From: Tahibacter aquaticus
GTDB taxonomy: Bacteria > Pseudomonadota > Gammaproteobacteria > Xanthomonadales > Rhodanobacteraceae
Assembly (NCBI RefSeq): GCF_004363655.1
Contig: NZ_SNZH01000005.1
Coordinates: 310,750 to 374,749, forward strand
Direction: 5' to 3'
DNA length: 64,000 bases
The notes beneath the pieces were generated by a model, which was not told the origin of the DNA, searched no databases, and saw only the letters and a program-made list of their open reading frames with translations. Made by a program: the position numbers and the translations under genes. Below are positions 49,735-61,162 of the stretch, piece after piece; positions within the stretch are counted from its first letter, which is position 1, and every line of letters starts with the position of its first letter.

Positions 49735-51351
49735 TCAGCCCGCGGGCGCCGCCGCCTCGCGCCGGTAGTAGGCCCGTCCCTGCCCCCAGGAAACACTGAG
49801 TCCGCGCAGCCGGCCGCGCGCATCGCGGTGGAATTCGAACAGCGGATAGCCACGCTCGGCAGCGACGAAACGCGCGGTCGCCAGCGGCGCCAGGGTCTGT
49901 TCGCGCCTGGCCCCGGGCGTGAGAAAGGCAAAACGGCCGGCATCGGCACGCACCGTGATCGTGGCTGCATCGAACAGTTCGGTCAGCACGCCGCGGTATT
50001 CCATCGGCACCGAGTCGTCGAGGCGATACTCGCCGGCATAGTCGGCGTAGGCGGCACCGCTCAGGTCCAGCGCAACGATCTGCAGCGGCGGTTCCACCGC
50101 CAGTCCTATCGCATCGACCAGGGCATTGCGGATCTCCACGCGCAGTTCGGCCCCACCGTCGCTGGTATTGGTCAGGATGACGAAGCCGTCGCCGCTTTCC
50201 AGATAGCCTTCGATGCGGGCGTGATAGCTGTCGTTGTCGCCACCATGATGGAACACGCGGGCCCGCCCGGCGCCTTCCAGGCGCGGCCCCAGGCCGTGCA
50301 CGCTGGGCGCAACCTCGGTCATCATCTGGCGGGCCAGCGGCTGCGGCAGCAGGCCGTCCTGTGTACGGTAGCTCTGCAGCAAGGCTGCGACGAAGCGGCC
50401 CAGGTCGTTCGCGCTGGTCCACAGGCCCGAGGCGGCAATTTCCGGGAACGACTCCCAGCCGCGCGGCAAGGCGCGCACCTTGCCCTGTTTGTCGTGGGCT
50501 TTTGCCACATTGTCGGTCGTCGCGGGCAATGGGCTGGCGAAGCTGCTGCGCTGCATGGCCAGGGGCGCGAACAAACGCTGCTGCGCCAGCAACTGCAGCG
50601 GCAGGCCACTGTTTTCCTCGACCAGCAGCTGCACCAGCTGAGTGCCGCCGCCGGAATAGCGATACATCAGGCCCGGCTCTCGCTCGATGCGCACAGGCTT
50701 GTTTTTGGCCGGCGGCAGGCCGTCGAGAATCTGCAGCAGCGCCGGCATGGCTTCGTCGGGCTGGAAATCTTCGAAGCCGCGCGTGCTCAGGCCGGCGGTA
50801 TGCGACAGCAGCATGCGCAAGGTAACGCTGGCGTCGGCGAACTGCGCTGCCGGCGGCAACTGCCAGCTTTTCAGCGACTGGTTCACGTCGCTGTCCAGCG
50901 CGAGCTTGCCTTCGGCCACCCGTTGCAGGGCCAGCGTCGCCGTCACCACCTTGCTGACCGATCCGACCGAAAACAGCGTATCGGCGTCGACCGGCAACGC
51001 CTTGCCCGCTTCGCGCGTGCCATAGCCACGCGCGGCAACCAGCTTGCCGTCGCGGATCAAGGCCACGGCGACGCCCGCTACCTTGTAATGCGCCATGCGT
51101 TCTTGCAGCGACCAGTGCGGCACAGCCTGTCCCGGCTGTAACAGCGAGGGCCGCAGGCCGTGATCGAGCATGGCCAGCGGGTCGGCCACGGGCGCTGCCG
51201 CACCGACGTCCAGCGGCGGCTTGCCCTCTATTGACGATGCGGCGCAACCGGCCAGCAGGGTCGCCAGCATCAGCGAGGCCGCCAGCGCGCCGCGCTGCAA
51301 GCGGGCGCACCAAGCCTCAGGGCTAGTGGAAATTTCAAGGTATGACTGCAT
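49735..51351 (-). CDS. Class C beta-lactamase-like serine hydrolase lipoprotein
   Basis: 538 residues from ATG 51351 with AGGAG 7 nt upstream. Lipobox LLAGC (Cys36). Active-site motifs: S131-V-S-K134, YRYSGGG (the Y-x-N-like motif) and HHGGDN near the C-terminal triad motif. Beyond it a C-terminal domain of about 120 residues. This group covers esterases, DD-peptidases and D-aminopeptidases more often than true beta-lactamases. Periplasmic or outer-membrane attached. Confidence 0.85.
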   Translation of the reverse strand: MQSYLEISTSPEAWCARLQRGALAASLMLATLLAGCAASSIEGKPPLDVGAAAPVADPLAMLDHGLRPSLLQPGQAVPHWSLQERMAHYKVAGVAVALIRDGKLVAARGYGTREAGKALPVDADTLFSVGSVSKVVTATLALQRVAEGKLALDSDVNQSLKSWQLPPAAQFADASVTLRMLLSHTAGLSTRGFEDFQPDEAMPALLQILDGLPPAKNKPVRIEREPGLMYRYSGGGTQLVQLLVEENSGLPLQLLAQQRLFAPLAMQRSSFASPLPATTDNVAKAHDKQGKVRALPRGWESFPEIAASGLWTSANDLGRFVAALLQSYRTQDGLLPQPLARQMMTEVAPSVHGLGPRLEGAGRARVFHHGGDNDSYHARIEGYLESGDGFVILTNTSDGGAELRVEIRNALVDAIGLAVEPPLQIVALDLSGAAYADYAGEYRLDDSVPMEYRGVLTELFDAATITVRADAGRFAFLTPGARREQTLAPLATARFVAAERGYPLFEFHRDARGRLRGLSVSWGQGRAYYRREAAAPAG

Positions 51352-51486
51352 GGCAACTCCTGTCCGTGGTCGGGCTTGGACGGAGCTTGGCACGCTCAGG
51401 TTAGCAACAGCGTCGGCGTGCGCCAGTACGGCAAATGCTGGCGCCCGGCCGGTGCCGGGCCGGCGTTGCTGCAACCTGAGCGATGG

Positions 51487-52239
51487 TCAATCGAAGTAGA
51501 TCGAGACCCCGAAGCCGCCCTGTACATCGGGCGTCGCCGCATTGACACCGAAGTCGGCGGACAGATCCAGCTGCACCCGTTCGCTGGCCATCCAGGTAAA
51601 GCCGCCGCCTGCCACGGCGTTGTCGGGCGAGCCTTTGGCGTGGGTATAGCCGGCTTCGACGAAGGCAGCCCAGCGCTCGCTCAGGGCAAAGCCCAGGCTC
51701 GGTGAAATCGTATAACTGTTGCTTCCGTCCTGATGGCCGGCATCGGCGTAGAGCGTGGCCGAGACGCTGTCGTCGAAGGCCCAGCCCAGGCTGGCGGCGA
51801 CATCGTAGGCCGTGCTGCCCGAACTGAAATCGTCTTCGCCCGTCGCGAAGCTGGCGGTGGCCAGCAGCGCCCAGGAAAACGCTTTCGACGTGGACGGCCC
51901 GGCCCATTTGAAACCGATACCCGTATCGCCATAGCCCTTGTTACTGCTGCGCCCCTGCGGCGTGACCAGGCGCTGGTAGTTCCAGGGCGAGCCGAACAGG
52001 CGCAGTTCGAAGGTATCGCTGAGGCCAAAACGCAGGTTCGTATTCGCCGCGTAGGCACGCAGACTCGTACCGTCGCGAGAGTCGCGTACGAAATCGGGCA
52101 GGCCCTGTTCCCAGGCGATACCGCCGGCCGGCACCGTCGTCGTGGTGACGGCGATGCCGGGCCGGTCGAAAGCCGGTGTGACGGCCTGCGCGAACGGAGC
52201 CAGCGCAGAGCAGGCAGTGAAAAACAGCCAACGGTTCAT
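51487..52239 (-). CDS. Outer-membrane beta-barrel protein, transporter (MetA-phenol-degradation-like) family
   Basis: 250 residues with a signal peptide (LFFTACSALAPFAQA) and a string of amphipathic beta strands (FELRLFGSPWNYQ, DTGIGFKWAG, WALLATASFATGEDD, ATLYADAGH) ending in FGVSIYFD with a terminal hydrophobic-aromatic barrel end. Start supported by GGAGGGG. The MetA/DUF3034-like barrels are thought to move hydrophobic small molecules; substrate unknown. Confidence 0.75.
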   Translation of the reverse strand: MNRWLFFTACSALAPFAQAVTPAFDRPGIAVTTTTVPAGGIAWEQGLPDFVRDSRDGTSLRAYAANTNLRFGLSDTFELRLFGSPWNYQRLVTPQGRSSNKGYGDTGIGFKWAGPSTSKAFSWALLATASFATGEDDFSSGSTAYDVAASLGWAFDDSVSATLYADAGHQDGSNSYTISPSLGFALSERWAAFVEAGYTHAKGSPDNAVAGGGFTWMASERVQLDLSADFGVNAATPDVQGGFGVSIYFD

Positions 52240-52378: not shown

Positions 52379-54505
52379 TTATTGGAAACCGTTGGCGAAA
52401 ATCACGTCGACCGCGCTGCCGCCCGTAGCCGATGTCGTATCCCTCAGCGCATACGTCGTACCACCGAAGCTCACCGTGAAATTGCCCGGCGCGACCATCG
52501 GCAGGTAGTAGACGAATTCCACTTCCAGCGAACCGCCGGGCGGCAGTGCGTTCCAGCTCGACGACAGCCGTGCCCGATGGAAATCGCCGTCCAGGCCGCC
52601 GATATTGCTGCCGCTATGGCCGGTGGAAACCACGCTGAGCGTGGCGCCGGACCAGTTGGTCCAGTTGGCCGGCGCCGAGGTGGACAGATCGAACTCGAAC
52701 AGTGCACCGGCCGGAATCGTCGTCGTGGAGTTGTTGACGATCTTCAGCTTGGGCGTGATCGGATAGTTGCTGTCGCCCAGGTCGAATTCGCTGACGCTGA
52801 TGCTGGCGTCCAGCGTGCCCCCGGTTGCCGGCGTTGCGAAGCGTCGATTGCCGTAGGGCGCAGCGGACTGGAAGCGCTGATAGTAGATGTCGGTCAGCGT
52901 CGTGCCGATATACCACTCGCCCTGGCCGCCGCGGCGGTCGGGATGCCAGCGGTAGTCGCCGGCCAGCTCCCAGATCATCACGCCGCCCAGGCCCTTGTCG
53001 GCGACATAGTCGGCCTTGGTCGCGGTCGAGGTCTCGTCCTCGGTGGAGATGAATACGTTCTTCTGCGCGTTCCACAGCCACGGCGCCACCAGGGTCGCGT
53101 CGTAGTGGCGCACGTAGGTGCCGCTGAGCCGGTCGTCGGGGTTGTTGACCGGGTCCAGGCCGTAGGCGGCGAGATAGGTCGGCAGAATGGAATCCTGCAG
53201 ATTTTTTGCATGCCACATCGGGTTGGAGCCGGCCGGCACTTCGGCATTCAGTTCCAGGTCGTGCCAGATATTGTCGATGCCGCGGGCACCCTGGCCGCAG
53301 CTGGTCAGGCCGACCGGACAGCCGCTGCTCTGTGGCGCCGTGCCCCACAGACCGTTGCTGCCGCCGCTGACATTGCGCCAGCCGCGCGTGTAGTACGGCA
53401 CGCCGACATTGATGCGCCCGGCCGGCAGGCTGCCGCGGAAGTAGTGATAGGCCCAGTCGGTATTCAGATAGCCGAGATTGCCGTACTGCGACGTCGTATA
53501 CACGTTCCAATGTACCAGCTCGGCATCACGGCCGTCGTCGTACAGTGCGGCGTTCGGACCGACGAACTGGTTCCAGGCGCCGTGCAGGTCGTAGCTCATG
53601 ACGTTGACATAGTCCAGGTACTGCGTGACCTGGTAGGTTTCCATGCCGCGCAGCAGATAGCCCGAGGCCGGTGCGGCCACGGTCAGCAGGTAGTACTTGT
53701 TGTCCTGCGCCGCGGCGGCATCGAGTTTCTCGCGCAGGGTCTTCATCAGTGCGACATAGCCGCGCATCAGCGCGGCGCGGCGCGGATTGGACACGCTCCA
53801 GTCCAGCGGATGCCCGGCGTCGTTCATCGAGGTGGCGTATTCGTAGTCGATGTCCACGCCGTTGAAGCCGAAGCGGCGCACGAAGGCGACGGCGGAATCG
53901 GCGAAGGTGTCGATCGCTGCCTGGTTGACCTGGTTGGCCGCGGTCACGGTCAGCGCATAGAAACCGCCGTCGGCGATGCGATTGCCATTGGCGTCGAAAT
54001 AGCCGCCCGTCTCGGCCCAGCCACCGACCGAGATCAGCGTCTTCGCCTGCGGAAATTGTTTTTTGTACTTGTTCAGAAGATTGAAGTGACCCTTGTAGCT
54101 GAATTCCGGGTCCATCTCCGCGCCGGCGACGCCGGGCCATTGCAGGCCGGTGGCCGGATTCTGCGGATCGGCCTCGTTGCCTACCGACAGGCGATTGCTG
54201 CCGTCGATATGGGCGAAGGCATAGTTGATGTGGGTGATCTTGCTCCAGGGAATGTCGCTGGCAAGAAAACGCGGCTGACCGTTGGTGCCGCTGCGCCAGC
54301 TGGTGAAGTAGCCGATGATGCGGCGCTGGCGGCTGCCCATGCGTTCGCGGCCCGCCGTGTCGTAGGCGAGGCAGTACGGCGTATTCACGCCGGCGGTTTT
54401 CTGCATGCCGTCGGGCCTGCAGCTGTCCTGGGCCTGGGCGCTGCCGCCGCAGAGCGCGGCGACGGCCAGCAGTGCGGCGATGCAAGGCAGGTAATGGCGA
54501 GTCAT
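52379..54505 (-). CDS. Secreted GH18 chitinase A
   Basis: 708 residues, start with GGGGAGG upstream. Signal peptide to about residue 26. GH18 catalytic motif at 214-222 reads FNGVDIDYE: D218, D220 and E222 are present, but the first Asp of DGxDxDxE is Asn215. Other family segments are SVGGWAE and MSYDLHGAWN. A C-terminal beta-sandwich (about 580-700, FxLGDSNYPITPKLKIVNNS-type) looks like a chitin- or cellulose-binding module. The protein ends in DVIFANGFQ, a tail shared with two other secreted proteins here. Breaks chitin to oligomers outside the cell. Confidence 0.9.
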   Translation of the reverse strand: MTRHYLPCIAALLAVAALCGGSAQAQDSCRPDGMQKTAGVNTPYCLAYDTAGRERMGSRQRRIIGYFTSWRSGTNGQPRFLASDIPWSKITHINYAFAHIDGSNRLSVGNEADPQNPATGLQWPGVAGAEMDPEFSYKGHFNLLNKYKKQFPQAKTLISVGGWAETGGYFDANGNRIADGGFYALTVTAANQVNQAAIDTFADSAVAFVRRFGFNGVDIDYEYATSMNDAGHPLDWSVSNPRRAALMRGYVALMKTLREKLDAAAAQDNKYYLLTVAAPASGYLLRGMETYQVTQYLDYVNVMSYDLHGAWNQFVGPNAALYDDGRDAELVHWNVYTTSQYGNLGYLNTDWAYHYFRGSLPAGRINVGVPYYTRGWRNVSGGSNGLWGTAPQSSGCPVGLTSCGQGARGIDNIWHDLELNAEVPAGSNPMWHAKNLQDSILPTYLAAYGLDPVNNPDDRLSGTYVRHYDATLVAPWLWNAQKNVFISTEDETSTATKADYVADKGLGGVMIWELAGDYRWHPDRRGGQGEWYIGTTLTDIYYQRFQSAAPYGNRRFATPATGGTLDASISVSEFDLGDSNYPITPKLKIVNNSTTTIPAGALFEFDLSTSAPANWTNWSGATLSVVSTGHSGSNIGGLDGDFHRARLSSSWNALPPGGSLEVEFVYYLPMVAPGNFTVSFGGTTYALRDTTSATGGSAVDVIFANGFQ

Positions 54506-54648
54506 GGTCTTCCTCCCCGAAGTCCGTGGGATGAGCGGGATCCGGCGCAAGTGCCGGTCACTGCAAGCGTTGTGGAAAATGCGTCATGGCCTGCGCTCTG
54601 GCGCAGAACTGTAGCGGCCGCGGTGCGCCCACGGCCGCGCCGCGGCGT

Positions 54649-56397
54649 TTATGGCGTGTGCACCTGAAAATCGTCGGCAAACAAGCTGTCGGCGTTGGCG
54701 CTGCCATGGCCCAGCCCTTCGTGCATGGCATTGAGGATGCGGCCGTTGTCGGCATCGATCTCCCAGCCGAACACGCCGGCCAGACCGTTGCTGCGCGCAA
54801 ATTGCCCCTTGGCCCTGGCCGAGCGCGAGCTTTCGAAGGAAATCAGCTTGCCCGCTGACGCATTCCACACCCAGGCTGCTTCTGCCGTCGCGTCGTAGCC
54901 GGCGACATAGCCACCGGCCCCGCTGCCGTTTTCACCGCCGAGAAAAGCGCTTTCGATCTGGCGATAGTCGAATACGCCGTTTTCCCAGGTGCCGGGGCTC
55001 GCCGCGCCGGCGGCAGTGCCGCTGAATGGATTGCCGTTCTGCACGCCGCTCAGGCCTTGCCAGCCACGCCCGTACATGGCCACGCCCAACACGAGCTTGG
55101 CCGCGGGCACACCGGCTGCGCGCAGGTTGGCAATGGTCGCGCTGCCGTTCCAGCCCGGAGCGGTGAGACCCGGTGCTTCACGCAGGCCCGCCTGGTGGCC
55201 GAGTACGTTGTTCCAGCCGCCGTAGTAGTCGTAGCTCATGGCGAACACCAGGTCGAGCTTCTGCGCCGCAACGGCATAGTCGACCGCGGCGATCTTGGCC
55301 GGCGCTGCACCGACCGCTGCGGTCAGCAGGTACTGGCGGTTGTTCTGTGCACCCAGCGCATCCAGCGCCGTGCGCAGCTCCGTCAGCAGGGCGTTGTAAC
55401 CGGCACGATCCGTCGCCGCACCGAGCAAGTCGTTGGCACCGCCGCCACCCGGATATTCCCAGTCCAGGTCGATACCATCGAAAAAGGTATACGTTTGCAG
55501 AAACTGGATGGCCGAGTTGATGAAGGTGGTGCGCCGGGCCGGATCGTTGGCCAGGTGGTAGAAGGGATCGGACAAGGTCCAGCCACCGATCGACGGCAGT
55601 ATCTTCAGGCCGGGCTGCGCTGCCTTGGCGCGGATCAGCTGGCCGAAATTGCCGCGGATCGGCGTGGTCGAGGTATCGCCCGGATAGCTGGTGTCCAGCG
55701 CGGCGTTGCGGTCGTGGATGGTGACGGTGTAATCAGGCTGGTCGGCACACTCCTGCATCAGCGCCTGATAACCCTGCGGATTGGCAGCAAGCAGCGAATC
55801 GTTGGGACCGCAGATGGCGATGAAGGCGTAGATGATGTGGCTCAGGTTGGACGTGGGCATCTTGCGCACGGGAAAGGCGCGGCCGTAGATGCCCCATTCG
55901 ACGAAATACGCCGCAACCACCGCATTCGTGCTGTTGGCGTAGGGGCGGTTGTGTTCCAGCAGCGGCGCCGGCCAGGTCAGGCCGTCGCTGCCGCCGCTGC
56001 TGCCGCCGACTGTCACGCTGCGCGGGGCGCTGGCGGTGCACTGCTCGCTGGCACCACTGCCGTTGCACAGGTCGACGACAAAGCTGTAATTGCCGGCGGC
56101 GGCGAGATTCAGCGTATGCGTGGCGTGCTGGGCGTTCTGTCCGTTCGGCGTGAGTGCGGCCGTGTGCACGACGGTGCCGTTCTGCTTCAATTTCCAGCGG
56201 TTGCCGTTGTTGCCCCACCACATATCCCAGCTGACCGTCACACTGGCGCTGCCATTGTTCAGCGGTACGCTTTCCGGCATCCAGGCAATGGTCGGCGCCG
56301 GTGGCGCCTGGGCCAGTGCGTTGGCCGACTGCAGACCCACCACCGCGACCAGCACTGGGGCAAACAGGCGTGCACGCGAAAGCAATAGCGACTTCAT
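54649..56397 (-). CDS. Secreted GH18 chitinase B
   Basis: 582 residues. Signal peptide to about residue 30, then a fibronectin/ChiA-N-like domain (35-130), then the GH18 barrel with the intact motif D307-G-I-D310-L-D312-W-E314. KILPSIGGWTLS and MSYDYYGGWN are also typical. The protein ends in SLFADDFQVHTP, the FAxxF tail followed by a few residues. Upstream lies a NagR-like palindrome. It is followed by chitinase A in the same direction; together they suggest chitin degradation under N-acetylglucosamine control. Confidence 0.92.
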   Translation of the reverse strand: MKSLLLSRARLFAPVLVAVVGLQSANALAQAPPAPTIAWMPESVPLNNGSASVTVSWDMWWGNNGNRWKLKQNGTVVHTAALTPNGQNAQHATHTLNLAAAGNYSFVVDLCNGSGASEQCTASAPRSVTVGGSSGGSDGLTWPAPLLEHNRPYANSTNAVVAAYFVEWGIYGRAFPVRKMPTSNLSHIIYAFIAICGPNDSLLAANPQGYQALMQECADQPDYTVTIHDRNAALDTSYPGDTSTTPIRGNFGQLIRAKAAQPGLKILPSIGGWTLSDPFYHLANDPARRTTFINSAIQFLQTYTFFDGIDLDWEYPGGGGANDLLGAATDRAGYNALLTELRTALDALGAQNNRQYLLTAAVGAAPAKIAAVDYAVAAQKLDLVFAMSYDYYGGWNNVLGHQAGLREAPGLTAPGWNGSATIANLRAAGVPAAKLVLGVAMYGRGWQGLSGVQNGNPFSGTAAGAASPGTWENGVFDYRQIESAFLGGENGSGAGGYVAGYDATAEAAWVWNASAGKLISFESSRSARAKGQFARSNGLAGVFGWEIDADNGRILNAMHEGLGHGSANADSLFADDFQVHTP

Positions 56398-56558
56398 CGG
56401 AAGGGTCTCCTCGGCAATACGGAAATAACCAGAATTAACAACAAAGAAAATTGTTCAATACTTGGCAAGAGCAACCGCAGCGTCGAACGGCCTGGCGTTC
56501 TTGCGCCCTGGCACCAGGGCAAATGCCGGGCCGCGACACGGCGACAAATAGCCCTTGA

Positions 56559-56572
56559 TGACAACGTTGTCA
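56559..56572. promoter_or_regulatory. NagR-like LacI-family operator upstream of chitinase B
   Basis: TGACAACGTTGTCA is a perfect 14-bp palindrome with the CG centre of LacI operators; it resembles the NagR consensus known for N-acetylglucosamine regulons of Xanthomonadales and Alteromonadales. It lies 162 bp upstream of the chitinase B start, in a 356-bp gap that is otherwise gene-free. Confidence 0.6.
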
Positions 56573-56753
56573 AATTCTGATTCAAACATACTTAACCGTC
56601 TGTGGCAGCCGTCACTACCCGGCCTGCCACAGTTGGAAAAAAAGTCGGAAACACGCCAATTACCGCACGATCACGTTCGGTAATTCTCCGGGCGAGGACA
56701 CGATGACAACGATGGACTGGCGACGGCCACAGAGGGCGATCGCTGGCGGCCGC

Positions 56754-57221
56754 TCAGCGGCGCTTGCGGAAGAACACCCGCAGCAGTTCCGCCGCAGTCT
56801 CGGCCTCGACGCCGCCGAGCACCTCGATGCGGTGGTTGTGCCGGTCCGACAGCAGCGTGTCGAATACGCTGCCGGCCGCGCCGGTCTTGGGATCGCTGGC
56901 GCCGTAGACGACACGGGCGACCCGCGCATGCACCAGCGCCATGGAACACATGGCGCAAGGCTCCAGGGTGACGTACAGCGTGGCACCCGGAAAGCGGTAG
57001 TTGCCCAGGCGCTGGCCGGCATCGCGCAGTGCCTGGATTTCCGCATGCGCGCTGGGATCGTTCAGGCCGATATTGCGGTTGCAGCCTTCGCCGACGATGT
57101 GGCCGTCCTGCACCAGCAGCGCACCGACCGGCACCTCGCCGTATTCCGCCTCCGCATGGCGCGCGAGTTCCAGAGCGCGGTGCATGAAGGCGGTATCGAT
57201 GAGGGCGGAATCGTCGGACAT
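56754..57221 (-). CDS. tadA: tRNA-specific adenosine deaminase
   Basis: 155 residues from ATG 57221 (GTG 57248 would add nine Arg/Pro-rich residues). Zinc deaminase motifs: H59-A-E61 in SAHAEIQAL and PCAMC with C89 and C92. MHRALELARHAEAEYGEVPVGALL is typical TadA. It converts A34 to inosine in tRNA-Arg(ACG), an essential function. Short for TadA but complete. Confidence 0.92.
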   Translation of the reverse strand: MSDDSALIDTAFMHRALELARHAEAEYGEVPVGALLVQDGHIVGEGCNRNIGLNDPSAHAEIQALRDAGQRLGNYRFPGATLYVTLEPCAMCSMALVHARVARVVYGASDPKTGAAGSVFDTLLSDRHNHRIEVLGGVEAETAAELLRVFFRKRR

Positions 57222-57275
57222 GCGTAATCGTCTGCGCGGCAAGGGCACGCATCATAGCGAAACAGGCCGGTACAG

Positions 57276-57307
57276 GTAGGTCGGGCACTGCCGCAGGTGC
57301 ACCCCGC
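57276..57307. repeat. Half-element of the 33.4-kb palindrome
   Basis: GTAGGTCGGG, CACTGCCGCAGG and GCACCCCG match the first arm of the element at 33418. It fills much of the short gap between TadA and the spermidine-synthase-like gene. Confidence 0.6.
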
Positions 57308-58090
57308 CTAGCCGTCATCGGCCTCGCTGTCGGATTGCGCCTGCGACCTGCGCAAGCTGCCGTCCGGGTCGTGCGCGGCGCGTATGCGCAGCGCCGCCGG
57401 CACAAGCTGGGCCCAGCCGGCACGGTCGACTGCAGCGGGGCGGCGGATTTCGCCGATGCGCCGCTGCAGGCGGCGGCCGGCGAAGACGACGCAGTTGCCG
57501 CCGTCCTCGTCGAGCACGCACAGCACGCAACCCTCGAAGACGCGGCAGACATTGGCCAGGAAGGCATCGCGGCCCGCGTCGTTGCTGTCGACATTCACCA
57601 CCAGCATGCCGTCGGCGCGCAGGGCCTTGCGGCAGGCGGTAACGAAACTGCGGCTGCGCAGTCGGGCCGGCATGCCGGATTCGTCGTAGCCGTCGAGCAG
57701 GATGGCGTCGAAGGCATCCGTTTCGCTTTTTATAAAATTAACGCCATCGCCCAGGTGGATGCGGCAGCGGCGGTCGTCGCGTGGCAGGGCGAAGGCATCG
57801 CGCAGCGCGATCACGCGGGCATCGCGCTCGACCGCTTCGCAGCGCGAGCCGGCCACATGGCGGTGACAGAACTTCAACAGCGAACCGCCGCCCAGGCCGA
57901 TCAGCCCTATGCGCCGCGGCCGCGGCAGGAACAGCAGGAAACCCATCATCAGGCAGGTGTAGTCGAATACGAGCAGGCCGGGATCGCGCAGCAGCATGCG
58001 GCTTTGCACCCGCGCCGGGCCGAAATGCAGCGAGCGCAGACCCGCGGCGTCGACAACGTAAGGTGCCTGATCCCCTGCCCGCCTGGCCAC
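57308..58090 (-). CDS. Spermidine synthase-like (SpeE-fold) protein
   Basis: 260 residues from a probable GTG at 58090. The Rossmann AdoMet-binding core is visible: RRIGLIGLGGGSLLKFCH, CEAVERDARVIAL and FDAILLDGYDESGMP, the order of SpeE/polyamine aminopropyltransferase-like proteins. The N-terminal domain is short, as in orphan family members. The aminopropyl transfer residues cannot be confirmed; it could be a methyltransferase-like relative. No speD nearby. Confidence 0.75.
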   Translation of the reverse strand: MARRAGDQAPYVVDAAGLRSLHFGPARVQSRMLLRDPGLLVFDYTCLMMGFLLFLPRPRRIGLIGLGGGSLLKFCHRHVAGSRCEAVERDARVIALRDAFALPRDDRRCRIHLGDGVNFIKSETDAFDAILLDGYDESGMPARLRSRSFVTACRKALRADGMLVVNVDSNDAGRDAFLANVCRVFEGCVLCVLDEDGGNCVVFAGRRLQRRIGEIRRPAAVDRAGWAQLVPAALRIRAAHDPDGSLRRSQAQSDSEADDG

Positions 58091-58221
58091 TGAGTTGCCG
58101 CTCCCTGTGCTGGTCGTTGCGCGCTATCCACAGGCCGTCGCGCCGACGACCTGCCTGCCGCCCTCTTCCCCGCCGTGTGGTTAGCGCCGGCGGGGCAGCC
58201 ATCTTAGCCAAGCGGCAGTGG

Positions 58222-59310
58222 CTACGGGTGGCTCGCGACATCGCGCAGCGCCGCGTCGGGCAAGGCATAGGCCGAGGCGAGCAGCTCGCCCTCGTACACC
58301 ACTTCGGGAAACTGCACGCCGCATAGCGCCTGTACCGCGAAAATCTCGCGCACGCCGCCGGTAAAGGTGAGGAATGCCAGCGTCTCGCCGCTGTGCACAT
58401 TCACCGCCCATATGCCCGAGCGGCGCTCGGCATTCTGCTCGGTCAGGGGAATATCGGTGAAGGCATTGCTTTCGCGCAGCTGCGACAGGCCGATCAGCGC
58501 GACCGGACCGATGAAATCCAGGCCGCGGGCAAAACCCGGCACACGCGCAATATCGGTCTTGGCGCCGCTGAGCGGATCGATGCTCACCAGCGCGCCGCGG
58601 CCGGATTCCAGCAGCCAAAGCCGCCCGCCGTGCCAGCGCGGCGAATGCGGCATGCTCAGGCCGGCGGCAACGATGCGGTTCTGCTGAATGTCGATCAGCA
58701 CTCCGCCATCGCGCTTGTTGGCGCGCCAGCCCTGCAGGCTGTTGCTCTGGCCTAGAGCGGTGACGTAGCGCGGCTCGCCGTCGCGCATGCCCAGGCCGTT
58801 GAGATGGCAACGGTCCTCCGCGGCGAGGTGGCTGACGAACCAGGGCCGCCAGCGCGGTACGAAGCTGGACGATTCGTCCTGCGTGCACAGGCAGGAAAAC
58901 AGCGTGTTGACGAACCACAGGCGGCCGCTGCCGTCGAAAGCCATCTCGTGGATGTCGATCGCGCCGGTGACATGGCGCCGGCGCAGCAGATAGGCCGCAT
59001 CGTGTACCGCATCGCCGCCGAGTTTCGCCGCCAACGCCGGCATATTGTGGAATTCCACAATTTCCGAATGCGTGCCCAGCGCGATGCGGCCGCGGTCGGC
59101 GGCCAGGCCCATCGGCCTGGCGAAGCCACGGAAATGCGTGTTCACGCGCGCGCCCTCGGCACGCAGCAGCACCAGCTTGCCGGCCTGGTAGGTGCTGACC
59201 AGCACACTGGCTGAAAGCTCGCGCAGCAGCACCGGAAAACTCGCGGTATGCACGCTTGCCAGCGCCTCGGCGGCCAGCGCGGCATCGTTTGTCGGCGCTG
59301 CAGCGCGCAT
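58222..59310 (-). CDS. TIGR03032 family protein
   Basis: 362 residues from ATG 59310 (TGAGG upstream). A beta-propeller-like protein with SVLVSTYQAGKLVLLRAEG, FARPMGLAADRGRIALGT, DIHEMAFDGSGRLWFVNTLFSCL and SFVPRWRPWFVS, all typical of TIGR03032. Function unknown; members are often near glycan or tetratricopeptide genes. Starts 7 bp after the beta-helix stop, so they are co-transcribed. Confidence 0.85.
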   Translation of the reverse strand: MRAAAPTNDAALAAEALASVHTASFPVLLRELSASVLVSTYQAGKLVLLRAEGARVNTHFRGFARPMGLAADRGRIALGTHSEIVEFHNMPALAAKLGGDAVHDAAYLLRRRHVTGAIDIHEMAFDGSGRLWFVNTLFSCLCTQDESSSFVPRWRPWFVSHLAAEDRCHLNGLGMRDGEPRYVTALGQSNSLQGWRANKRDGGVLIDIQQNRIVAAGLSMPHSPRWHGGRLWLLESGRGALVSIDPLSGAKTDIARVPGFARGLDFIGPVALIGLSQLRESNAFTDIPLTEQNAERRSGIWAVNVHSGETLAFLTFTGGVREIFAVQALCGVQFPEVVYEGELLASAYALPDAALRDVASHP

Positions 59311-59317
59311 CTGCGCC

Positions 59318-61162
59318 TCAGCCCTCGAACGCGTCGGCGAAAACGCGATCGGTATTCGGCTGTTCCTCGTAGGCGCCAATATCCGGCGTGCCGAAGGCGC
59401 GTACGAACGGCCAGCCGCGTGTGTCGTAGAGCACATTCAGCGTATTGCTGCCGGCATTCAGCGCCGGGCTGGCACTGGCGAAGGCATGTACGCGGGTGCG
59501 TACCATGCCTTCGCTGAAGACCAGCGGCAGCAGCAGCGGATCGGCAGCCAGCGTGTCGGCGGGCAATTCGCCGGGCAGGCCCGGCGCATTCGGCACGATG
59601 TTTTTCGCACCGCTGATCACGTCGGGGAAGGTCCAGACGTTGTTGGCCGCGCCGGCGGTGGCATTGTTGGCGATGATGCTGCTCTGCAGGTCGACGCTAT
59701 AGGTATAGCTGTCGGCGCTGATGCCGGCGCCGCGCTCGCCGGCGTTGTTGAAGGCGATGGTGCTGTTGCGCACGTTCAGTTCGGCACCGCTGGAAAACAC
59801 GCCGCCGCCCTGGTTGGTCGCCGTGTTGCCGGAAATGGTGCTGTTGTCGATTCGGCTGGACTCGGGCGCGTATTCGCCGAACAGCAGGTTGACGCCGGCA
59901 CCGTCCGAGCCCGAGATATTGCCGGTCACGCTGCTGTCGAGCAGCTGCACGCTGACGCCGAAACCGAGGATGCCGCCACCGCCTTCGTCCAGGCCAGCAT
60001 CGTTGTGCGCGGTATTGTTCTCGATGCGCGAGCGCTGCACGATCAGCCTGCCCCGCCCCGGCCCGATCAGGCCGCCACCGGCCGAATCGGCCTCGTTGCC
60101 GCTGATCACGCTGTCCAGCACCTGTACGTCGTTGCCGCTGCCAAAGAAGCGGAAACCGCCGCCACCGCCGTAGTGGTTGGTCGAACCGACCGTGTTACCG
60201 CTGATTTCGCTGTGATCGATGGTAGCCATGCCGACGACGATGCCACCGCCGCCCTGGGGCGCGCAGACGTCGCAAAGCGAGCGGTTGCTATTGCCGCTGA
60301 TCACGCTCTGCAGCACTTCCAGCTGCACCGGCGTGGTGCCGCTGGCGTTGACGCCTGCGCTGATGCCGCCGCCAAAGCTTTCGTAGCTGTCCGAAGTGAC
60401 GCTATTGCCGCTGATACGCGCGTTATCGAGCAACAGGTTGCCGTCGCTATGCACTCCGCCGCCCTGGGCAATATTGACGAAGGGGTTGTTGCCGCTGACC
60501 AGATGGCTGTGGGCGGTATTGCCGGCGATCTGCGTGCGGGAAATGCGCAGAGTGCCACCGGCGTAGACGCCGCCGCCGAGCACCAGGCCGCGGCCGTCGG
60601 CGCGGCTGTCGGCCACGCGCGTGCCGTCGAGGCTGACATCACCCAGGGCTGCAATGGCGCCGCCGCGTACGCCTTCCACGTCGTTGCCGCCTGCACTGCA
60701 GCCGGTCACGCTGCCGCCGGTGACGCGCACGCTGCCCTGGGAAAACACGCAGCCACCGCTGTCGGGACTGTGGCCGGCACCAAGGTTGAGGTTGTCGAAA
60801 CTCAGCCAGCCGGTGCCCGTGTGCTGGAACAGCCGCGACTGCGGCGCGCCACTGACAGCGAAGTTCTGCGCCGCTGCGGCGGCAATGGTCAGATCGGCGA
60901 TGGCACCGACGTCGATGGTGCCGCTGGTCAGGGCGATGCTACTGCACGCCAGCGCACTGAGATCGACCGTATCGCCGCTGCCCGCCGTCGCGATAACGGC
61001 GCGCAGGCTGCCGCTGCCGCTGTCGTTGCAGTTGGCCACCGGCAGGTTCGCCGCCAGCGCCGGTACGGCCGGCACAGCCAGCAGGGCAGCAGCCAGGCAC
61101 AGGGCCAGCGGGCGACGCGCAGGACGGCGGCGGGTCGAGGGAAAGGCAGTGGTCGGGGACAT
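59318..61162 (-). CDS. Secreted right-handed beta-helix protein with FAxxF C-terminal tail
   Basis: 614 residues from ATG 61162 (GGAG upstream). Signal peptide to about residue 38. Repeated short turns with SGN and GGG (ISGNSVTSDS, GGGGIVVGMATIDHSEISGN, SSVTGNISGSDGAG, STISGNTATNQGGGVF) are those of a pectate-lyase-like polymorphic beta-helix repeat (choice-of-anchor Q type). Ends in PNTDRVFADAFEG. Probably a cell-surface adhesin or carbohydrate-binding protein. Upstream is a membrane regulator, downstream a TIGR03032 gene. Confidence 0.85.
   Translation of the reverse strand: MSPTTAFPSTRRRPARRPLALCLAAALLAVPAVPALAANLPVANCNDSGSGSLRAVIATAGSGDTVDLSALACSSIALTSGTIDVGAIADLTIAAAAAQNFAVSGAPQSRLFQHTGTGWLSFDNLNLGAGHSPDSGGCVFSQGSVRVTGGSVTGCSAGGNDVEGVRGGAIAALGDVSLDGTRVADSRADGRGLVLGGGVYAGGTLRISRTQIAGNTAHSHLVSGNNPFVNIAQGGGVHSDGNLLLDNARISGNSVTSDSYESFGGGISAGVNASGTTPVQLEVLQSVISGNSNRSLCDVCAPQGGGGIVVGMATIDHSEISGNTVGSTNHYGGGGGFRFFGSGNDVQVLDSVISGNEADSAGGGLIGPGRGRLIVQRSRIENNTAHNDAGLDEGGGGILGFGVSVQLLDSSVTGNISGSDGAGVNLLFGEYAPESSRIDNSTISGNTATNQGGGVFSSGAELNVRNSTIAFNNAGERGAGISADSYTYSVDLQSSIIANNATAGAANNVWTFPDVISGAKNIVPNAPGLPGELPADTLAADPLLLPLVFSEGMVRTRVHAFASASPALNAGSNTLNVLYDTRGWPFVRAFGTPDIGAYEEQPNTDRVFADAFEG

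Follow-up and report, generated by a model that had tools for sequence, protein, structure and literature searches.

Unrelated exoproteins that combine an N-terminal signal peptide with a common C-terminal sorting element are a feature of the type IX secretion system, whose C-terminal domains are folded, span about 70 to 80 residues and belong to Bacteroidota. In the GlyGly-CTERM/rhombosortase system, as described in passages of two papers (PMC3237569, PMC6219818), a short common C-terminal element is likewise found on unrelated signal-peptide proteins, with many proteins to one system and a patchy presence across genomes; the element consists of a motif, a transmembrane (TM) helix and basic residues, is paired with an intramembrane protease, and in Vibrio occurs on substrates of the type II secretion system (T2SS). 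For the T2SS itself, passages of PMC12369372 and PMC7949064 describe a PDZ-bearing GspC (EpsC, OutC) that selects exoproteins, and propose unstructured segments as signals; the determinants known there are parts of folded domains or loops that vary by substrate. Secretion of VesB depends on the EpsC PDZ domain, which also captures a VesB Ig-fold chimera, and the OutC PDZ domain is reported to bind a PelI loop (passages of PMC12369372). No unified or common linear T2SS signal is known according to passages of PMC10128026, PMC7949064 and PMC12369372. Here we analyze a 64,000-nucleotide stretch of the Tahibacter aquaticus genome (NZ_SNZH01000005.1, positions 310,750 to 374,749; hereafter the window), in which two chitinases (A and B) and a beta-helix-like repeat protein, all secreted, end in a similar short tail, hereafter the tag. 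From sequence comparison, the tag is probably a portable linear sorting address for a T2SS with a PDZ-ended GspC, marking cargo exported by Sec or Tat, since tag and T2SS come and go together across the order.

The tag differs from each of these systems. It is about 7 to 9 residues long and its carriers share just the last few residues, unlike the type IX domains, and it is one linear motif common to dozens of proteins, unlike the EpsC/OutC determinants. Neither a TM helix nor a basic cluster follows the motif in the 50 C-terminal cases that we inspected, in contrast to GlyGly-CTERM and also to PEP-CTERM, in which a TM helix comes after the motif, and a membrane-anchored CTERM signal was rejected on these grounds. 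We found no description of the tag in open-licence PMC papers and no model of it in NCBIfam, which a motif this short could escape.

The tag in the T. aquaticus genome

In the whole T. aquaticus genome (7.27 Mb), the pattern F-x-[DN]-x-F-[EQ] has 158 matches compared to 25 for its reverse, several of the raw matches falling in wrong reading frames. A narrower pattern that asks for a hydrophobic residue before the first F and a GNN codon at the second x, hydrophobic-F-x-[DN]-(G/A/D/E/V)-F-(E/Q/D/H), has 111 sites compared to 2. Position was analyzed for the first 63 of these 111 sites, and 50 of the 63 lie at most 15 amino acids from a stop. Judged by eye, seven sites look genuine but internal, one of them directly after a signal peptide, and about six look like chance matches. 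The C-terminal placement given in the first-pass annotation thus holds for most copies but not for all, some genuine ones being internal. Copies directly behind the signal peptide were seen by eye in genomes G000 (L079), G620 (L139) and G044 (L141). Furthermore, in family f4, 34 of 38 sites are C-terminal, with a signal peptide predicted by a crude rule in 27 of the 30 complete open reading frames (ORFs) among these; the 38 sites were hand-picked among the matches listed and come from five genomes in four genera (G039, G050, G437, G462 and G444).

Among the 50 C-terminal cases, 21 have no residue after the motif and 14 have one, with a range of 0 to 11. Position -2 is D in 36 cases, followed by I (33), L (14) or V (3), F (50), A (27), D (29) or N (21), G (34), D (11) or A (5), F (50) and finally E (22), Q (19) or D (9). 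As read from these sequences, the tag consensus is [ILV]-F-x-[DN]-x-F-[EQD]. The tag differs in both respects from a classical PDZ ligand, which has a free carboxylate and a hydrophobic last residue. Tagged genes often adjoin one another, as with two adjacent genes (L036 and L037, G000:C1:591571-602098) that are each called at 1,678 amino acids and both carry a terminal tag, and also at C6:104329-109279 and C8:66829-73463.

Proteins that carry the tag

The tag is associated with predicted export. A signal peptide without a further TM helix is found in 44 of 55 tagged genes but in 104 of 365 untagged neighbors (Fisher, P = 3e-13), and a crude predictor finds a signal peptide in 43 of the 50 C-terminal carriers; simple home-made rules were used to call gene starts and signal peptides, and the absolute fractions are therefore rough. 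The enrichment among signal-peptide proteins on which the first-pass annotation had made its proposal depend is thus present, and the tail is not equally frequent in nonsecreted proteins.

That the carriers are otherwise unrelated is likewise borne out, because the only invariant columns in an alignment of 47 of them are the two F residues of the tag, in a program free to bring the tails together (three of the 50, L032, L039:10305-10709 and L071, were omitted as doubtful gene calls). The carriers belong to families as varied as GH18, GH44, subtilases, M14 and M28 peptidases, phospholipase C, ExeM/NucH nuclease, and RCC1, NHL and delta-60 repeats, with the most frequent Pfam family accounting for 7 of 47. 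One carrier matches LapA, a T2SS effector in Legionella according to a passage of PMC6617341, and the carriers as a set look like typical T2SS cargo.

Distribution of the tag and of PDZ-type GspC

Tag counts are bimodal across 61 relatives, with a background of 0 to about 9, a second group of tens to more than 100, and few genomes between, and most sister genera with a similar genome size are near background. Outside the order, the highest count is 13 among 364 of the 369 genomes of the class, as read by eye and with a pattern that would miss a D-R-F-E variant. The tag is patchy within one gammaproteobacterial order, presumably Xanthomonadales/Lysobacterales, with no enrichment seen in the 364 sampled genomes outside it. 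The variant concerns genus g35, which is GspC-positive and seemingly untagged by the GNN-codon pattern but tagged by a relaxed one; its tag has the form F-x-D-R-F-E in the examples examined (L128, L137, G434), a lineage variant that might permit a co-variation test against the groove of the GspC PDZ domain.

We compared the tag with PDZ-type GspC in 250 genomes of the order, using a 16-sequence GspC profile (E ≤ 1e-30; the 16 source genomes included) and the relaxed pattern, which replaces the GNN-codon pattern for counts across the order and undercounts Q and D tails because its last place is fixed as E (59 instead of 84 in T. aquaticus). Counting a genome as tagged when the tag exceeds the reversed pattern by at least 4 per Mb, we find both GspC and tag in 96 genomes, GspC only in 16, tag only in 13 and neither in 125; the thresholds were set after the tables were seen, and 3 and 5 per Mb split the genomes similarly. 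The corresponding numbers are 73, 8, 4 and 115 for the 200 genomes that are at least 90% complete, and 58, 7, 1 and 110 for the 176 that are at least 95% complete. In the set of 200, 73 of 77 tagged genomes have a PDZ GspC, and the tag excess has a median of 12.8 per Mb in genomes with GspC, compared to 0.5 in those lacking it. By genus (n = 72, from the same 200), 29 have both, 3 GspC only, 2 tag only and 38 neither, that is, the tag is found in 29 of 32 genera with PDZ GspC and in 2 of 40 without (Fisher, P = 1.7e-14, which overstates the case because genera are related).

Where one or two genera depart from their family (g332 and g350 in f2, g338 in f8), the T2SS follows the tag. In family f2, a PDZ-type GspC at E below 1e-80 is confined to G481 and G620, the two tagged genomes, and G455, G561, G625, G627 and G629 have distant GspC matches and are untagged. 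On an rpoB tree of 29 genomes, both labels are clustered, and each of them requires four changes, three of which well-supported branches force. The forks are shared by the two labels: they concern the f2 core, from which G481 and G620 are excluded, the f1 core, f8 and, on a very long branch, G054 in f9. This is a quick tree, in which G054 is represented by half a gene and for which G040 gave no rpoB match. As the labels change at the same few forks, it is these three or four matched events, and not the 72 genera, that carry the argument. The rpoB gene of G054 lies in two abutting pieces (L181/L182, G054:C1:576375-580425), which may be a frameshift, an assembly error or a true split.

The T2SS of tagged genomes

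The candidates that we compared with the tag were the PDZ-type T2SS, rhombosortase and the kinds of GspD, of which these genomes hold at least two, one of them in a gspCDEF cluster. The gspCDEF cluster of T. aquaticus lies on contig C18, with GspC at 51281-52228, a protein with an HR domain and a C-terminal PDZ domain. We compared 20 gspCDEF loci, some cut by contig ends, of which 16 come from tagged or weakly tagged genomes and 4 from G031, G048 and G057. GspC is present in 16 of 16 tagged-genome loci and also in G031; rhlB lies beside the cluster in 11 of these 16 and ftsX in 9, and neither is found at the other four loci. In one locus (L117, G040:C88:5359-17834), gspCDEF stands amid housekeeping genes, with rho, trxA and rhlB on one flank and ftsE, ftsX, a response regulator and uracil-DNA glycosylase on the other.

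A second kind of operon, inspected in two genomes (T. aquaticus and the untagged G023), has a GspC-like protein between a T2SSM_b protein and GspD; this protein has no PDZ match in either genome, and for XpsC of Xanthomonas a single helix is reported at that place (passage of PMC11981180). The other kind of GspD was rejected as a partner of the tag, since it occurs in untagged f1 genomes among the matches listed. The first-pass annotation had also expected a co-occurring processing protease. Rhombosortase does not fit this role and was rejected: of 61 relatives, three exceed its cut-off, and these three are untagged (no search was aimed at other proteases). An apparent preference of one rhomboid subtype for tagged genomes was set aside as well, because this subtype is also present in untagged G015, G037, G048 and G057 (by eye, among the matches listed). 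In untagged G031, a gspCDEF-type T2SS (L118, G031:C47:11000-30900) is separated by no more than about 1 kb from a rhombosortase above cut-off (G031:C47:22879-23331), as if this genome had a GlyGly-CTERM system in place of the tag.

Tails in the window and the probably grafted end of chitinase A

All three tails that the first-pass annotation had reported are found at the C-termini of their proteins (Table 1). As a DNA pattern, FA[DN]xF[EQ] has three matches in the window, compared to a mean of 0.01 in 100 shuffles, and no fourth tag lies within 12 residues of a stop in the six frames (ORFs of at least 60 amino acids). For the M36 peptidase that, according to the first-pass annotation, lacks the tail, two zinc-motif searches of the window gave no match. 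The repeat protein had no match in the Pfam search, and the start codon of chitinase A is the choice with a signal peptide.

Table 1. Tagged proteins of the window and their tags (positions in the window)
Feature	Position	Strand	Description
Secreted chitinase A, 708 amino acids	52379..54505	-	Pfam PF00704 5e-67 (GH18), PF06483 3e-58 (ChiC domain); signal peptide
Tag DVIFANGFQ, then stop	52382..52408	-	Extreme C-terminus of chitinase A
Secreted chitinase B, 582 amino acids, signal peptide	54649..56397	-	Pfam PF00704 3e-79 (GH18), PF08329 1e-15 (ChitinaseA_N)
Tag DSLFADDFQ + VHTP, then stop, i.e. DSLFADDFQVHTP	54652..54690	-	C-terminus of chitinase B
Beta-helix-like repeat secreted protein	59318..61162	-	NCBIfam NF041518 6e-9 (choice-of-anchor Q), above cut-off; domain directly before tag
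Tag DRVFADAFE + G, then stop	59321..59350	-	C-terminus of repeat protein

A search of the other 249 genomes of the order for chitinase A gives no match at E 1e-60. Its 80 best homologues, as retained for comparison, are 61 to 67% identical and mostly from Streptomyces, the remainder coming from Herpetosiphon, a Chloroflexota metagenome-assembled genome, Undibacterium and actinobacteria. Since the best homologues are found in Streptomyces, Herpetosiphon and Undibacterium and no match at this threshold in the 249 genomes, the gene looks horizontally acquired. We aligned 76 of the 80 loci (four had no alignable ORF), and the alignment stops at residue 687 or 688 of 708 in 67 of the 76 homologues and by residue 700 in the rest. 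Past this point most homologues continue via a linker into further sequence, while one Undibacterium protein stops ten residues later, and the motif is absent from the last 25 residues of all 76. Because the alignment ends about 20 residues short and no homologue has the motif, the tagged end most likely arose as an addition in this lineage.

Interpretation of the tag

The signal-peptide enrichment, the unrelated carriers and the co-distribution with the PDZ-type T2SS together support the shared export or surface-sorting signal suggested by the first-pass annotation. In the mechanism that we propose, a predicted signal peptide would bring the protein to the periplasm, where it would fold and leave the tag as a free end or linker; a component at the T2SS entrance, most likely the GspC PDZ domain or one of its neighbors, would then bind the tag, and the protein would leave via GspD, to be released or retained at the surface. 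Proteins would enter the set by gaining a tag, for which chitinase A appears to be an example, and lineages without the PDZ-type T2SS appear, from the co-distribution, to be also without the tagged set. By analogy with EpsC and OutC, the GspC PDZ domain is a plausible reader of the tag, and further possible readers are GspD, the HR domain and the tip of the pseudopilus. Only tentatively, and with more doubt than confidence, do we put forward the full statement that this is the first common linear T2SS address, a seven-residue motif that can stand at the C-terminus, in linkers or at the mature N-terminus, is recognized by the GspC PDZ domain and, in bacteria of one order, routes up to about 100 unrelated proteins per genome.

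Several observations weigh against a T2SS address. Strict binding of a carboxylate by the PDZ domain fits poorly with a motif that ends in E, Q or D, with the 29 of 50 cases that have residues after the motif and with the internal copies. A T2SS that only exports, with the tag being read by something else, would make the proposal half wrong. Only three or four independent changes stand behind the co-distribution, and the true partner could be a different gene that was lost at the same steps. Among genomes at least 90% complete, GspC occurs without a tag excess in G031, G458, G473, G480, G507, G553, G569 and G627, of which G627 has a weak profile match, G507 reaches 3.8 per Mb, and G458 and G553 (both g327) are weakly tag-positive by the GNN-codon pattern. 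A tag excess without GspC is seen in G444 and G506, which are fragmented assemblies from a genus whose other members are positive, in G457 and G557, which are marginal, and in nine more genomes below 90% completeness.

The main rival, which we regard as unlikely but still a serious contender, is that the tag acts after export, in surface retention via a receptor or attachment step, with the T2SS merely upstream. It draws on carriers that match families anchored elsewhere, namely rhombosortase-dependent M36 (7 of 47), choice-of-anchor J (5 of 47), choice-of-anchor B and a MYXO-CTERM family, and on the choice-of-anchor Q domain directly before the tag of the window repeat protein. Passages of PMC7691419 describe a strain of Wenzhouxiangella, a possible carrier of the tag, with no excreted proteolysis, whose proteases are assumed to be on the outer membrane. 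Yet the tag brings neither a TM helix nor a basic cluster, no sortase-like partner was found in the rhombosortase search of 61 relatives, and cleavage and ligation at those copies that lie internally or close to the mature N-terminus would cost most of the protein. That the tag is read by something else lost in the same lineages as the T2SS, for example a periplasmic chaperone, a protease adaptor or a glycosylation enzyme, is compatible with so few independent co-changes but improbable, given carriers that resemble typical T2SS cargo and a T2SS that follows the tag even in the genera departing from their family. Chance, composition or part of one homologous domain would account for the accidental raw matches, including those in wrong frames and the six or so chance-looking sites, but as an explanation of the common tail it is next to negligible: the 111 sites compared to 2 for the reversed pattern, the unrelated carriers and the near-background counts in most sister genera of similar genome size all contradict it, and the shuffle and reversed-pattern controls led us to reject chance and composition.

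How the T2SS chooses its cargo is an open question, and a tag that tracks one T2SS across an order makes this question directly testable. With the tag, exoproteomes would become predictable from sequence, and enzymes could be given it as a handle for export. If it is indeed a common linear address, the T2SS secretomes of the order would be predictable from sequence alone.

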